From positions 62,001-126,000 of the forward strand of contig JAFGBK010000070.1 in assembly GCA_016933175.1 (NCBI GenBank): a DNA stretch of 64,000 nt, given 5' to 3'. Positions 28,077-33,297 of this stretch are shown here, in pieces. Position numbers and translations under genes: made by a program. The notes beneath the pieces were generated by a model. It did no database searches. It saw only the letters and a list, made by a program, of their open reading frames with translations, and was not told the DNA's origin. How positions within the stretch are numbered: position 1 is the first letter of the stretch; every line of letters starts with the position of its first letter. The DNA comes from Candidatus Krumholzibacteriota bacterium (GTDB lineage: Bacteria > Krumholzibacteriota > Krumholzibacteriia > JACNKJ01).

Positions 28077-29213
28077 TCAGCGCACGGTGGCCCGGGCGGC
28101 GGCCACCCGGTGCCCCAGCTCGTCGGCGCGCTGGTAGGCCTGCTGGGCCAGTTCTGGCTGCCCCAGCTTGTCGTAGACGATGCCCAGGTAGTAGTGGCTG
28201 CGCCCGTCGTCGGGGGTCAGCTCCAGCACCTTGCGAAAGAAGGGCAACGCCTTGTCGTACTCGTTCATGTTCACGTGGCACAGGCCGAGGTAGTACTGGA
28301 CGCGGGCGTCTTCGGGAAAGACGCGCTCGGCCCGCCGGAAGGCCTGGAGAGCGCGCCGGTGGGCGCCGAGCCGGGAGTGGCTGACGGCCATGTAGAAGAG
28401 GGCCTCGCCGTGCTGGGGCTGCTGGCACAGCACGCGGTCGAACTCGGCGATGGCCTCGGCGTAGCGCGCGCCGTTGTAGCAGGCGACGCCCAGGCTCATG
28501 CGGGCCTCGATGCTGTCCGGAGCCAGGTCCAGGGTCTTGCGGAAGAGCTGGACGGCCAGCTCCACCTCCCCCATCTCGCCGTAGAGTGCGCCGAGGTTGA
28601 GGTGTCCCTCGGCGTTGGTGGGATCGAGCTGGATGGCGCGCTTGAAGTACTGGATGGCCTGCTCGGTCTCGCCGCGCCGGTCCAGCGCGTAGCCGAGGTT
28701 CGTGCAGGCCTTGCCCAGGCGGGGCTCCAGGGCCAGGGCCTCGCGGAAGGCCGCCTCGGCCTCCGCGTAGCGCTCCTCGCGCAGCAGGGTGCAGCCCAGC
28801 TGGTACTGGCTCTCGGCGCGGTCCCCGGCGCAGGTCAGGGCCAGGCGATGCAGCTCGTGGGCCTGCTCGAAGCGGCCGGCCAGGGAGTGCAGGCGGGCGG
28901 CCTGGTTCAGCGGCGCGGCCGCGTCGGGCTCGCGGCGCATCCAGGCCTCGGCCAGGCTCAGGCCGCGCTCGAAGAGCTGGGCCCGATAGCTGGCCTCGAT
29001 GAGATCGGTGTAGGTCTCGGTGGGCAGCTCCAGGGGATCGGGCAGCTCCTCGATGAGAGCGGCCACCTCCTCGCGGGCCCCTGCGGCCAGGCGCTCGTCG
29101 AGCCAGCGGCCCAGGGCCTCCTTGCTGGCGCCGTTCTCGCTCAGGAAGCGGTTGAGCAGCAATCGGCGCTGGCTGCGCTTCTGGAGCCGGCGATACCAGG
29201 ACCATGGGCTCAT
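28077..29213 (-). CDS. tetratricopeptide repeat protein
   Basis: 378 residues. After an N-terminal helical region of ~100 residues come about seven TPR units (for example AESQYQLGCTLLREERYAEAEAAFREALALEP, read as two helices per unit), extending to the C-terminus. No signal peptide or catalytic domain, so it is probably a cytoplasmic scaffold; the binding partner is unknown. Its own promoter (29243-29272) lies just upstream and uppP follows. Confidence 0.85.
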   Translation of the reverse strand: MSPWSWYRRLQKRSQRRLLLNRFLSENGASKEALGRWLDERLAAGAREEVAALIEELPDPLELPTETYTDLIEASYRAQLFERGLSLAEAWMRREPDAAAPLNQAARLHSLAGRFEQAHELHRLALTCAGDRAESQYQLGCTLLREERYAEAEAAFREALALEPRLGKACTNLGYALDRRGETEQAIQYFKRAIQLDPTNAEGHLNLGALYGEMGEVELAVQLFRKTLDLAPDSIEARMSLGVACYNGARYAEAIAEFDRVLCQQPQHGEALFYMAVSHSRLGAHRRALQAFRRAERVFPEDARVQYYLGLCHVNMNEYDKALPFFRKVLELTPDDGRSHYYLGIVYDKLGQPELAQQAYQRADELGHRVAAARATVR

Positions 29214-29300: not shown

Positions 29301-29813
29301 TCAGTCGGCGTCGGCGGGCGTCGTTTCCGCTTCCTCCGGAAGGGTCGCAGCGGGGTTGTCGCGCAGGTACCAGGGCTGGTCCCAGGCCCGCCACGTCCAG
29401 CCGTAGGGACTGGCGGCACCGAGTTGCTGGTACTCGAGACGAAGGGTGACGTGCTCGCTGGGCCGCCAGGTGAGGGACGCCTCGGGCAGGGTGAAGCTGG
29501 CCGGACCCTCCCGGCCGGACAACTGCGCGCCGGGCGTGAAGGCGAGACCGAAGCGCGCGCGGAAGGTGAGCCCGGGCGCCAGGACGCTGCGCAGCTCCTG
29601 GAGCAGGAAGCCCTGGCTGGCGCTCGCGCCGCCGGACCAGGCCGCGCTGTAGGCCAGCGTCGTCGGACCCCACTCGAGACGCTCCAGGTTCAGGCCAGGC
29701 GTGGCTGCGATGGGATCCAGGGGCTTGGCGAAGGGATGCGGCGCATCGGCCGCCGCGGCCGCCGCGGCGAGGAGGAGGCCCGTGGCGAGGCACAGGGCGC
29801 GTCGGAATGTCAT
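29301..29813 (-). CDS. small secreted protein of unknown function
   Basis: 170 residues. A typical signal peptide (residues 1-22, ALCLATGLLLAAAAAAADA) is followed by a beta-rich sequence with alternating aromatic residues (FRARFGLAFTPGAQLSG, LTWRPSEHVTLRLEYQQL), as in small outer-membrane beta-barrels or periplasmic proteins. No family recognised. The start overlaps the response-regulator stop (ATGA), so the two are translationally coupled. Confidence 0.65.
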   Translation of the reverse strand: MTFRRALCLATGLLLAAAAAAADAPHPFAKPLDPIAATPGLNLERLEWGPTTLAYSAAWSGGASASQGFLLQELRSVLAPGLTFRARFGLAFTPGAQLSGREGPASFTLPEASLTWRPSEHVTLRLEYQQLGAASPYGWTWRAWDQPWYLRDNPAATLPEEAETTPADAD

Positions 29814-30163
29814 GCGAGGAGCTCCTTGACCTTGCGCTTCAGGGGATCGAGGTCCGCCGACTTGACGACGTAGGCTTCAGCGAGCCAGGAGGAGAAGTCC
29901 TCCTTGTAGCTGCTGTACGCGCTGCAGATGACCACCGGCAGGTCGCGCTGCGATGCCATGATCGTGCGCAGGTAGCTTAGTCCGTCCGGGCCGCCGAGGC
30001 GGATGTCGAGGATGAGCAGGTCCGGCCGCCGCTCGGTGATGGCGCGGTCGGCCTCCTCGATAGTGGCCACCGCCTCGACCTCGTAGCCCTCGTCCTCGAA
30101 CTCCCGCGCGTAGAGCTCGCGGATGTTGGCTTCGTCGTCGAGGATGAGGAGTCGCTTGGGCAT
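29810..30163 (-). CDS. single-domain response regulator (CheY-like receiver)
   Basis: 117 residues, a receiver domain only. Acidic pair D9-D10, phospho-acceptor D53 (LLILDIRLGGPDG), S81 in the switch position and K101 are all present, so it should be phosphorylatable. With no output domain it must act through protein contacts. Gene start at 30163 with AAAGGAAAGG upstream. It sits between the MglA-like GTPase gene and a coupled secreted-protein gene. Its kinase is not adjacent; the nearest histidine kinase is at 55553-57412. Confidence 0.93.
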   Translation of the reverse strand: MPKRLLILDDEANIRELYAREFEDEGYEVEAVATIEEADRAITERRPDLLILDIRLGGPDGLSYLRTIMASQRDLPVVICSAYSSYKEDFSSWLAEAYVVKSADLDPLKRKVKELLA

Positions 30164-30176
30164 TGCCTTTCCTTTA

Positions 30177-30212
30177 CTGCGGAAGGTAGTCCAGGGTTCC
30201 GCAGCCTGTCAA
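30177..30212 (-). promoter_or_regulatory. response-regulator promoter with inverted repeat
   Basis: Perfect TTGACA (30207-30212) and TACCTT (30183-30188), 18 bp apart, immediately after the MglA-like gene. The perfect 8-bp inverted repeat CTGCGGAA / TTCCGCAG (30177-30184 and 30197-30204, 12-bp spacing) covers the spacer and -10, the expected position of a repressor operator. As RNA it has no U-tract and so is not an intrinsic terminator. Confidence 0.5.
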
Positions 30213-30219
30213 GAAAGGC

Positions 30220-31647
30220 TCACTCCGCCCGGAGCAGCTCCGGCTCGCGCGCGCCCTCGACGGGCGACAGCTCCTTCTCCTCGCTGATGAGCAGGCGCAG
30301 GCGCAGCTCGCCCGACTCGAGCAGGCGCCGCGGGAGGCGCACCTGGATCTCAGGCATCTGGCCCGTCGGCGACAGCAGGAGCTTGGCCTCCACCATGGTC
30401 GGCGTGTCGCTGGCGTCGCTGCTGGGCGGCAGCGATTCGGCCAGGCCCGGCTCCTCGTCGCCCGGCGCGGGATCCAGCGGCGCGGCCGCCTCCGCGGGCG
30501 GCGCCGCAACGGGTGCGTCGGCGGCCGGCGGCGCGTCCATGGCCGCGGGCGGCACCGGGGGCGCGGCAGCGCCGGGAGCGGCCGGCGCGGTCGGCCCGGC
30601 CGCGGCGGAAACGTCCGGCGGGAACGACTCGCCCGTGGCCGCGGGCGCGGGCGACTGGGCGGGAGCGTCCGGCGCCGGCAGCGGAGCCGGCGGCGCTTCT
30701 TCGACCACGAGGACCCCATCGAGGGGCGGCGCGCCGCTGTCCATGCCCGTCGCGTCCAGCTTGTAGCCGGGCAGGGCTTGCTCGGACGCCGGCGCAGGCT
30801 CCGGATCCTCGCCGATCATGGGCAGATCCACCACCAGGGGCTCCGGCAGGTCGTCCAGGTCCACCTCGGCGAGCCCGCTGCCGGGCAGTGGCGCCGGGGC
30901 GTCGTCCTGGGCGCCCGCGGGCGGCGCCGGCGGCATCGCCTGGGCCGGCGCGCTGTCGGTGGCGGGCGACTCGGTGGCCGGCTGCGGCGCCGGCACGGGC
31001 GCCTCGGCGCCGGGGATCTCCTGCGTGGCCCGCTCCCGGGCACGCAGCCCCAGCTCCTCCTCGATCTGCTTCTCGAGCAGGGGCCGCAGCAGGCCCGCCA
31101 CGCCGCGCAGGGTCTCGTGGACGCCCTCGCCGCGCGTGGCCACGGACTCGAACCAGGAGATGCCGCCGGGATTCAGGGCGGTCTCGAGCTCCTCGATGGT
31201 CGCGACGTCCGGCAGGTCGCGCTTGTTGTACTGGAGGACCCAGGGCAGCTCGTCCAGCTTGAGCCCCATGTCGTCGAGGTTCTGCCTCAGGTTCTCCAGG
31301 CTCTCGATGTTCTCGTCCATCTTGTCGCGCTGGCTGTCGGCGACGAAGACGAGGGCGTCGACGCCCTTGAGGACGAGGCGCCGCGTGGCGTTGTAGTAGA
31401 CCTGGCCCGGCACCGTGTACAGGAGGATCCGCACCTGGAAGTCGTGGATCGGATCCGCGTTCATGGGCAGCAGGTCGAAGAAGAGGGTGCGGTCCGTGCG
31501 CGTCTTCATGGAGATCATCTTGCCGCGCCGGTCCTCGGCGACCTCCTTGAACAGCGCCTCCAGGTTGGTCGTCTTGCCGCAGAGACCCGGGCCGTAATAG
31601 ACCACCTTGGCGCTGATTTCCTGTCCCGCTCGGTTGATGAGTGCCAC
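30220..31647 (-). CDS. MglA-like small GTPase with long Ala/Pro-rich C-terminal extension
   Basis: 475 residues. The N-terminal ~200 residues form a Ras-like GTPase of the bacterial MglA type: G1 GPGLCGKTT (19-27), TVPGQVYYNATRR in the G3/switch II region, and QYNKRDLP as G4. MglA proteins set cell polarity for motility. A ~200-residue Ala/Pro/Asp-rich, probably disordered linker follows, then a short ordered C-terminal part (ending in EIQVRLPRRLLESGELRLRL). The start is GTG at 31647 with AAGGGG upstream; the open frame to 31803 is not conserved-looking. No mglB (Roadblock) gene is adjacent. The extension is well beyond the ~195 residues of standard MglA. Confidence 0.83.
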   Translation of the reverse strand: MALINRAGQEISAKVVYYGPGLCGKTTNLEALFKEVAEDRRGKMISMKTRTDRTLFFDLLPMNADPIHDFQVRILLYTVPGQVYYNATRRLVLKGVDALVFVADSQRDKMDENIESLENLRQNLDDMGLKLDELPWVLQYNKRDLPDVATIEELETALNPGGISWFESVATRGEGVHETLRGVAGLLRPLLEKQIEEELGLRARERATQEIPGAEAPVPAPQPATESPATDSAPAQAMPPAPPAGAQDDAPAPLPGSGLAEVDLDDLPEPLVVDLPMIGEDPEPAPASEQALPGYKLDATGMDSGAPPLDGVLVVEEAPPAPLPAPDAPAQSPAPAATGESFPPDVSAAAGPTAPAAPGAAAPPVPPAAMDAPPAADAPVAAPPAEAAAPLDPAPGDEEPGLAESLPPSSDASDTPTMVEAKLLLSPTGQMPEIQVRLPRRLLESGELRLRLLISEEKELSPVEGAREPELLRAE

Positions 31648-31943: not shown

Positions 31944-32390
31944 ATGGCGGATACGCGCAATGTCCTGGCGGACATGTTCGACCGATTCCTGGGCATCGAG
32001 GTCACGGCGGACATCCAGGAGAAGCTGGTATCCATCGTCGACAAGGTGGAGGCCAGCATCCGGGACGACATGGATCTGGGCACCGTCCAGGGCCAGAACA
32101 CCCTGCGCATGCTGCTGGCCACGCTGGTGGCCTACGGCTGGGGTATCGGCATGCATCCCTTCCACAATCCCCCACGCGACAAGAGCGGCCGCATCCTCGA
32201 GGTGCGGGCCAGCAAGGACATCCTCGTCCCCGTGGAGGACCTGCAGTCGATCCGCTACCTGAAGAAGGACAAGTACGGCCGCGTGCGGAAGGCGCTCTTC
32301 GAGCCGGACCAGAACGCCCGCGTGCGCAGCCAGATCGACGGCCTGCTCGCCGAGATCGCCGTCAACAAGTGGCAGGAAGAGGAAAGCTGA
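31944..32390 (+). CDS. conserved-looking hypothetical protein
   Basis: 148 residues, soluble, no signal peptide or membrane segment. It begins with an amphipathic helical stretch (MFDRFLGIEVTADIQEKLVSIVDKV) and has a central Gly/His/Pro-containing segment (YGWGIGMHPFHNPPRD), then a basic region (SIRYLKKDKYGRVRK). The ATG at 31944 has GAGGAG seven nucleotides upstream. I do not recognise the family. It is divergent from the MglA-like gene and convergent with the ATPase gene; a link to either is only positional. Confidence 0.6.
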   Translation: MADTRNVLADMFDRFLGIEVTADIQEKLVSIVDKVEASIRDDMDLGTVQGQNTLRMLLATLVAYGWGIGMHPFHNPPRDKSGRILEVRASKDILVPVEDLQSIRYLKKDKYGRVRKALFEPDQNARVRSQIDGLLAEIAVNKWQEEES

Positions 32391-32445: not shown

Positions 32446-33297
32446 CTAGTCCCCCTTGGCCTCCCGCCGACGCGCATAGAGGATCACCGCGCGCCCGCCC
32501 CGCTCGAAGCGAACGTGGTCCATGGTCTCCCGCATGAGGAGCAGCCCCCGTCCGCCGGGCCGCCGCAGGCCGGCCTCGCTGGCGGGATCCGCCTGCTCGT
32601 CCGGCGCGAAGCCCGCACCCTCGTCCTCCACGCGCACCTTGAACACGTCCCGGCGGATCCACGCCTCGACGTGGACGCTGCGCGCGGCGTCCTCCCGGCA
32701 GCCGTGCTTGATGGCGTTGGTCAGCGCCTCGTCCAGGGCCAGGGGCAGGTTCTCCGCCCAGACCCGCGGCGGGAAGGCGTGCTCCCGGGCCAGGCGGCAG
32801 AGTAGTCCCACGGCGGGCGACATGTAGCGCATGTCGGCGGGGATCGCGAAGCGCGTGTGCGTGTGGACCCGCGCGTCCAGGTCCGGCAGGCGTCGGTCCA
32901 GGGGCAGGACACGGCCGCGCGCGGTGAACTCCCGGTCCAGGTCCAGGTGGGCGAAGGGCGGGCAGTGCACCTCGTGCAGTCCGCGGTGGATCAGGCGGCG
33001 CCAGAGGCGTCCGTCGCAGTCGGGCAGCAGGAGCAGCACGGCGGCGCCGTGGCGACGCCGCAGCCTGTCCACTGCCTCCCACGGCAGGGCATCGGCGTCC
33101 GCCGCCGCCAGGACCACGCCGGCTCCCGGCGGCAGGACCGGCCACTCCGCCTCGGGAGGCAGGGGCGACAGGCGCCCGGCCGGCGGCCGCGTCTCCTCCA
33201 GGAACTGGCGGGTGAGCGCGGGCTCCCGGTCCCAGAGGAACAGGGCGGCGGGCGCGGCGGTGCGCGGCGGCTTCACGTCAGAACAGCGGCTTGCCAT
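32446..33297 (-). CDS. RsbW-like ATPase fused to a receiver-like domain
   Basis: 283 residues. The C-terminal half (about 150-278) is an HATPase_c_2 (GHKL) domain of the RsbW/SpoIIAB type: N-box LDEALTNAIKHG, G1 DEGAGF, G2 GRGLLLMRETMDHV. Such proteins are anti-sigma kinases that phosphorylate STAS antagonists. The N-terminal ~110 residues resemble a degenerate receiver: alternating VVLAAAD, AVLLLLPD and EVHCPPF strands without a clear phospho-Asp set. The start is uncertain: ATG at 33297 (20-nt overlap with the upstream gene) or GTG at 33276; neither has a strong Shine-Dalgarno. No sigma factor is adjacent. Confidence 0.72.
   Translation of the reverse strand: MASRCSDVKPPRTAAPAALFLWDREPALTRQFLEETRPPAGRLSPLPPEAEWPVLPPGAGVVLAAADADALPWEAVDRLRRRHGAAVLLLLPDCDGRLWRRLIHRGLHEVHCPPFAHLDLDREFTARGRVLPLDRRLPDLDARVHTHTRFAIPADMRYMSPAVGLLCRLAREHAFPPRVWAENLPLALDEALTNAIKHGCREDAARSVHVEAWIRRDVFKVRVEDEGAGFAPDEQADPASEAGLRRPGGRGLLLMRETMDHVRFERGGRAVILYARRREAKGD

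Follow-up and report, generated by a model that had tools for sequence, protein, structure and literature searches.

The window, a 64,000-nucleotide stretch of a Candidatus Krumholzibacteriota genome, encodes a long MglA-type GTPase that belongs to an MglA paralogue older than the divergence of the families of its phylum. The usual mglB-mglA pair has been cleanly lost in the window's family (f1), where the long MglA, with its motifs intact, is the sole MglA. We tentatively favour the reading that the long MglA locus is an MglB-independent MglA-receiver-TPR polarity hub, probably for type IV pili or polar surface machinery, in which the C-terminal arm and tail of the GTPase dock a partner. The features of the locus are as follows (window coordinates):

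28077..29213, minus: TPR-repeat protein, 378 aa (TPR families, E down to 3.4e-48; synteny)
29301..29813, minus: small exported protein, 170 aa, with a signal peptide, beta-strand-rich and outer-membrane-like (conserved family A3)
29810..30163, minus: stand-alone receiver-domain response regulator, 117 aa (PF00072, E 1.9e-19)
31647-30220, minus: long MglA, 475 aa, GTG start
31063..31647, minus: MglA-type G domain, residues 1-195 of the long MglA (PDB match, motif alignment, AlphaFold2)
30394..31062, minus: Ala/Pro-rich low-complexity linker, residues 196-418, predicted disordered (composition, pLDDT)
30823..30840, minus: linker motif PLVVDL, residues 270-275, the f1 version of the class motif G.[IVM]V[DE]L (regular expression against shuffles)
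30220..30393, minus: C-terminal tail, residues 419-475 plus stop (tail profile A1, leave-family-out test)
30351-30277, minus: tail core EIQVRLPRRLLESGELRLRLLISEE, residues 433-457
31944..32390, plus: P4, 148 aa, divergently transcribed, no known family
32446..33297, minus: HATPase_c_2 protein with an RsbW/anti-sigma-like ATPase domain (PF13581, E 2.2e-24)

Conservation of the long MglA locus

We read 28 long-MglA loci from 28 genomes and eight families, the phylum of the window being represented by a single class. The block runs in the order RecG, zinc-ribbon gene, HATPase_c_2 gene, P4 (divergent), long MglA, receiver and exported protein where present, TPR gene, UppP, and ValS. P4 adjoins the long MglA in all 28 loci, with intervening genes in several f3, f6, and f7 genomes, and the TPR gene adjoins the block in 27 of them, across all eight families. 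The exception, L049, has a pseudopilin-like gene and a GspE/PilB-like gene in the TPR place, followed by the contig end. A preliminary description of this DNA had proposed that the GTPase, the receiver, and the exported protein form a cassette. All three genes were found at the coordinates listed above, and their order recurs in relatives (f1, f3, and f7; 12 genomes). They are not, however, the conserved unit: the receiver is found at the locus in f1, f2, f3, and f7 and the exported protein in f1, f3, and f7, and both are missing in f4, f5, f6, and f8. The long MglA has two constant partners, P4 and the TPR protein, and two optional ones, the receiver and the exported protein.

P4 is strongly conserved and present in one copy per genome in 54 of the 57 genomes of the phylum. 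Searches of Pfam, NCBIfam, and the PDB returned no match for it, a profile search against the PDB gave nothing usable, and its single-sequence structure model reached a pLDDT of 54. By synteny, the HATPase_c_2 gene is a conserved upstream neighbour in most families; the N-terminal 150 residues of its product (32446-33297) resemble, by eye, a degenerate receiver domain. The unit could be split by a terminator-like hairpin (30236-30221) and by a promoter-like site ahead of the TPR gene. Since housekeeping genes surround the block (RecG, UppP, and ValS), synteny alone is no proof of shared function.

The receiver carries residues D9/D10/D53/S81/K101, and its phosphorylation-site residues are invariant in 12 orthologues. 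Its stop codon overlaps the start codon of the exported protein (ATGA), an arrangement that recurs in f1 and f3, so the earlier portrayal of a lone phosphorylatable receiver coupled to a small exported protein holds. Two of the seven members of exported family A3 weakly match TonB_dep_Rec_b-barrel (best 1.7e-4), and the profile of this family retrieved nothing usable from the PDB. In a strict search (E <= 1e-15), none of the tested f5, f6, and f8 genomes yielded a receiver orthologue, and f4 yielded unlinked relatives (39-43%). Being absent from four families, the receiver cannot be an obligate input.

A complete MglA-type G domain

The GTG start of the long MglA, at 31647, is preceded by AAGGGG and is common to its homologues (MVLIN/MAVYN/VALINR). 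The match to MglA chains in the PDB covers residues 2-192 (E about 4e-66), and AlphaFold2 modelled most of the G domain with a pLDDT of about 80-96. In line with the preliminary description, all MglA G-motifs are present: the motif alignment shows that GxxxxGKT, Arg53, Thr54, Asp58, TVPGQ with Gln82, and NKRD are kept. Arg53, Thr54, Asp58, and Gln82 are the catalytic residues named for MglA, with roles as described in PMC6785124. The protein thus carries the signature of the MglA family, namely TVPGQ (Thr instead of Asp), NKRD, and intrinsic Arg53 and Gln82. A paralogue search of the window's own genome found no second MglA, leaving one in total.

Two MglA paralogues and the loss of mglB-mglA

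Most genomes of the class encode two MglAs, a long one and a short one of about 192 aa, the latter at the locus recR-mglB-mglA-pgpA-cinA. In a tree from which the degenerate f4 copies were left out, all long copies group together (100/99), and the short copies coupled to MglB make up a separate clade (100/100). The clade of long copies stands beside the short MglAs and the MglAs of other phyla, all compared sequences being MglA-like, with no Rup/Roc outgroup. The long clade differs from the MglB-coupled copies in switch 1 (A48K/R and E50R/Q). Leu at position 59 is found in f1 alone; in M. xanthus, Phe59 is an MglB-contact residue (PMC6785124).

No Roadblock (MglB) protein was detected in the window's genome (92.9% complete), whether within four genes of the long MglA or elsewhere, nor in any of the four f1 genomes (G000-G003). 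In three of the f1 genomes, recR abuts pgpA, where relatives carry mglB-mglA; because recR runs straight into pgpA, this is a clean loss and not a gap, and the possibility that a Roadblock gene was missed through assembly gaps was ruled out. The preliminary description had noted that the GTPase lacks an MglB neighbour, which is true and extends to the whole of the window's genome as assembled. The absence is not intrinsic to the long MglA, however, as most relatives keep mglBA elsewhere. Lacking the usual switch and its regulator, f1 must control its long MglA in some other way.

The catalytic motifs of the long MglA are all kept in seven of the eight families. In f4, the P-loop Thr, TVPGQ, and NKxD are gone from the gene at the long locus, and the short pair is present in most genomes. 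The C-terminal tail has been kept despite this decay, and thus appears to serve some purpose independent of GTP hydrolysis.

Several further variants were observed. The f4 pseudo-GTPases (L106:7891-8724, L107, L108, L109, and L110) have GKR in the P-loop, no TVPGQ, and NHRD or NRRD, with the tail kept. Genome G038 carries a diverged Roadblock and MglA pair at the recR-pgpA locus (L134:6993-7484), missed by the Pfam Roadblock model and found with phmmer at E 3.8e-4. Long MglAs from f5 and part of f6 (L056 and L058-L062) have Ala21 in place of Gly21 in the P-loop, and their genomes have MglB; A/S21 has been linked to MglB-free MglAs (PMC3983030).

The linker and the C-terminal tail

Beyond the G domain, the window's protein has 280 additional residues (196-475), close to the roughly 270 of the preliminary description, and its linker is indeed Ala/Pro-rich (24% Ala and 24% Pro, 48% together). 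The AlphaFold2 pLDDT falls to about 40-55 beyond residue 200. Of the 28 linkers, 18 contain the short motif G.[IVM]V[DE]L and 18 contain [FIL][IV].[DN]P, against about 0.5-0.6 expected from shuffles for each; both motifs were picked by eye from the same, related sequences on which they were tested. The f1 form of the first motif is P.[IV]V[DE][LY].

The protein ends in a class-wide element of about 28 residues with the pattern xVPVxL-xxxxL-xxGxxLRIVLxIxV. The long MglA was the sole match to tail profile A1 in each of ten genomes, with no other match below E = 0.28; as the profile was built from the same tails, only this exclusivity is informative. Profiles built with one family left out recovered f2, f6, f7, f8, and most of f3, and recovered f4 and f5 weakly; the f1 tail was not recovered by the profile built without f1. 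In the reverse search, with an f1-only profile, f4 tails were among the best cross-family matches (E 0.09), and a chance-like match to an f1 zinc-ribbon gene scored better (E 0.0096). Synteny, position, and this weak similarity to f4 hint that the window's own tail is a diverged version of the class tail. The tail had been described as short and ordered: as a conserved sequence element it stands across the class, but AlphaFold2 shows it at low confidence, in a model that drew on homologues with other tails only. No reliable PDB match to a known domain was found for it, the best (ubiquitin, E 0.16) being taken as chance. The extension is present in all eight families examined and is not confined to one genome, and an annotation or GC artefact was ruled out by the conserved ends in 28 genomes.

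Long-linker MglAs are also common in Zixibacteria, Calditrichota, and Planctomycetota. A long linker with a tail is thus peculiar neither to this lineage nor to MglB-free MglAs, since MglAs of Zixibacteria and Planctomycetota have linkers with other tails and lie beside MglB. The proteins of Zixibacteria and Calditrichota (L063-L093, L096, and L104) have long disordered linkers and a near-invariant basic amphipathic tail, KKRGFFKRLFGIK, which is likely to target the membrane, and their genes lie directly upstream of mglB. Others, mostly from Planctomycetota (L094, L097, L102, and L103), have a linker ending in a hydrophobic helix (Kyte-Doolittle maximum 1.95-2.59) with mglB downstream, as tail-anchored Ras-like GTPases. 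A Nitrospinia MglA frame (L095:2397-3584) has a long C-terminal region that is helix-rich by eye and not Pro-rich. The long MglA of the window resembles the tailed MglAs of Zixibacteria and Planctomycetota in its G domain, disordered linker, and conserved C-terminal element, but that element is either a basic amphipathic end resembling KKRGFFKRLFGIK or a transmembrane helix, and mglB follows directly downstream. As linker MglAs with differing ends occur across phyla, an arm with a tail is a recurrent MglA architecture with interchangeable ends. Its layout is comparable, by analogy, to the hypervariable region of eukaryotic Ras.

Comparison with characterized MglA systems

Bdellovibrio bacteriovorus has an MglA without MglB, together with RomR and a 40 kDa TPR protein, Bd2492 (PMC3983030). 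With this hub the window has in common an MglA unaccompanied by MglB, a protein with a receiver domain, and a TPR protein of about 40 kDa. Unlike in Bdellovibrio, where the genes are scattered, those of the window are adjacent; the receiver of the window is a lone domain whereas RomR has more; and MglA-Bd has Ser21, whereas the window's protein has Gly21 and the 280-aa extension. Myxococcus has a TPR protein, SgmX, that binds GTP-bound MglA and promotes the formation of pili (PMC7519303). The M. xanthus system of MglA, MglB, RomR, and SgmX (PMC3441718, PMC7519303) resembles the window in its G domain with intrinsic Arg53 and Gln82 and in the type of its receiver and TPR partners, but differs in that the window's genome has no detected MglB, its MglA is tailed, and the genomic setting is another. 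RomR combines a receiver, a linker, and a conserved C-terminal region; at this locus, the adjacent regulator is a lone 117-aa receiver. Orphan MglAs such as SofG (PMC4316618) are likewise MglA-family GTPases uncoupled from mglB; by description, the window's protein is set apart from SofG by its phylum-wide conserved locus and its C-terminal linker and tail.

A putative polarity hub and its alternatives

We favour the hub reading because an MglA, a receiver, and a TPR protein without MglB match the composition in Bdellovibrio, because SgmX offers a precedent, and because PilT-family genes are present. Type IV pilus machinery, as judged from the PilT family only, is present in the window's genome (G000, over the cut-off, four hits in all), and PilT is found in 77 of 80 class genomes; as nearly all of the class has type IV pili, finding them counts for little. 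We infer the interactions, signalling order, and output of such a hub as follows. The long MglA would combine a GTP switch, the G domain, with a long flexible arm, which bears a linear motif and, at the C-terminus, a tail of beta type. The receiver would be an optional input, conveying a phosphorylation signal to the hub. The TPR protein would bind MglA as an effector or scaffold, like SgmX and Bd2492; judged from its architecture and adjacency, it may be such an effector, TPR proteins being common neighbours. Arm and tail would dock one fixed partner, whether the TPR protein, P4, or a polar complex; the output would be the type IV pilus or another polar surface machinery, and the small outer-membrane-like protein would be an accessory on the envelope side. 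In the window's family, the long MglA locus would have taken the place of the lost mglB-mglA pair and be the only MglA system left. The preliminary description had suggested a polarity or surface-organisation module distinct from Myxococcus MglAB/RomR: the locus does differ from that arrangement, with no Roadblock detected and a different core, and a role in polarity would be a matter of interpretation.

The main alternative, possible but rather unlikely in our estimate, is that the long MglA serves as a scaffold for the envelope or for cell division, positioning an envelope-building complex, with a GTPase cycle that is secondary or dispensable. The locus lies between an FtsA/FtsZ/Mur block and a run of UppP, ValS, and a RodZ-like HTH_25 gene, and in f3 and f6 the block holds, by eye, lipid/glycosyl-transferase-like genes, a Wzi-like outer membrane protein, and a UbiA-like gene. 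Such a scaffold would also fit the retention of P4, TPR, and tail in f4 with its dead G motifs, and of P4 in genomes without detected MglB or PilT (for example, G054 and G065). However, the intact catalytic motifs of the other seven families argue for a working switch there, and the housekeeping neighbours may be passive synteny. That the GTPase, receiver, and exported protein are unrelated neighbours that have stayed together by chance in a slow-rearranging region seems improbable. Two of them are missing in half of the families and housekeeping genes flank the block, but the ATGA overlap recurs in two families and P4, long MglA, and TPR persist while intervening genes come and go. About as improbable is that tail and linker act in cis, the tail folding onto the G domain to substitute for MglB as a GAP, GEF, or lock: the f1 protein, a sole MglA with no Roadblock detected, does keep Arg53 and Gln82, but tail and linker are equally present in families that have retained MglB, the f4 tail persists although the G domain no longer works, and the AlphaFold2 model, built without tail homologues, has no confident docking.

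More speculatively, P4, the tailed MglA, TPR, and the optional receiver and exported protein might make up a second MglA system, spread across the phylum and working with no Roadblock GAP at all. In that case, the disordered arm and the beta-type tail might be a targeting or regulatory device like the Ras hypervariable region, one that mattered enough to outlive the GTPase in one family and to take over all MglA function in another.

Implications

To our knowledge, descriptions of bacterial Ras-like switches portray proteins of a single domain, most of them with a Roadblock GAP as partner. The window's family is a natural case in which the usual mglBA pair was lost and the tailed paralogue was left; f4, in the same phylum, is the opposite case, in which the pair was kept and the GTPase of the paralogue decayed. 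A likely but unstudied partner is the P4 family, of which almost every genome in the phylum has one member. The contrast between f1 and f4 offers a way to test how the nucleotide state is set in an MglA that lacks MglB, and what purpose a C-terminal arm serves on a bacterial Ras-like protein.
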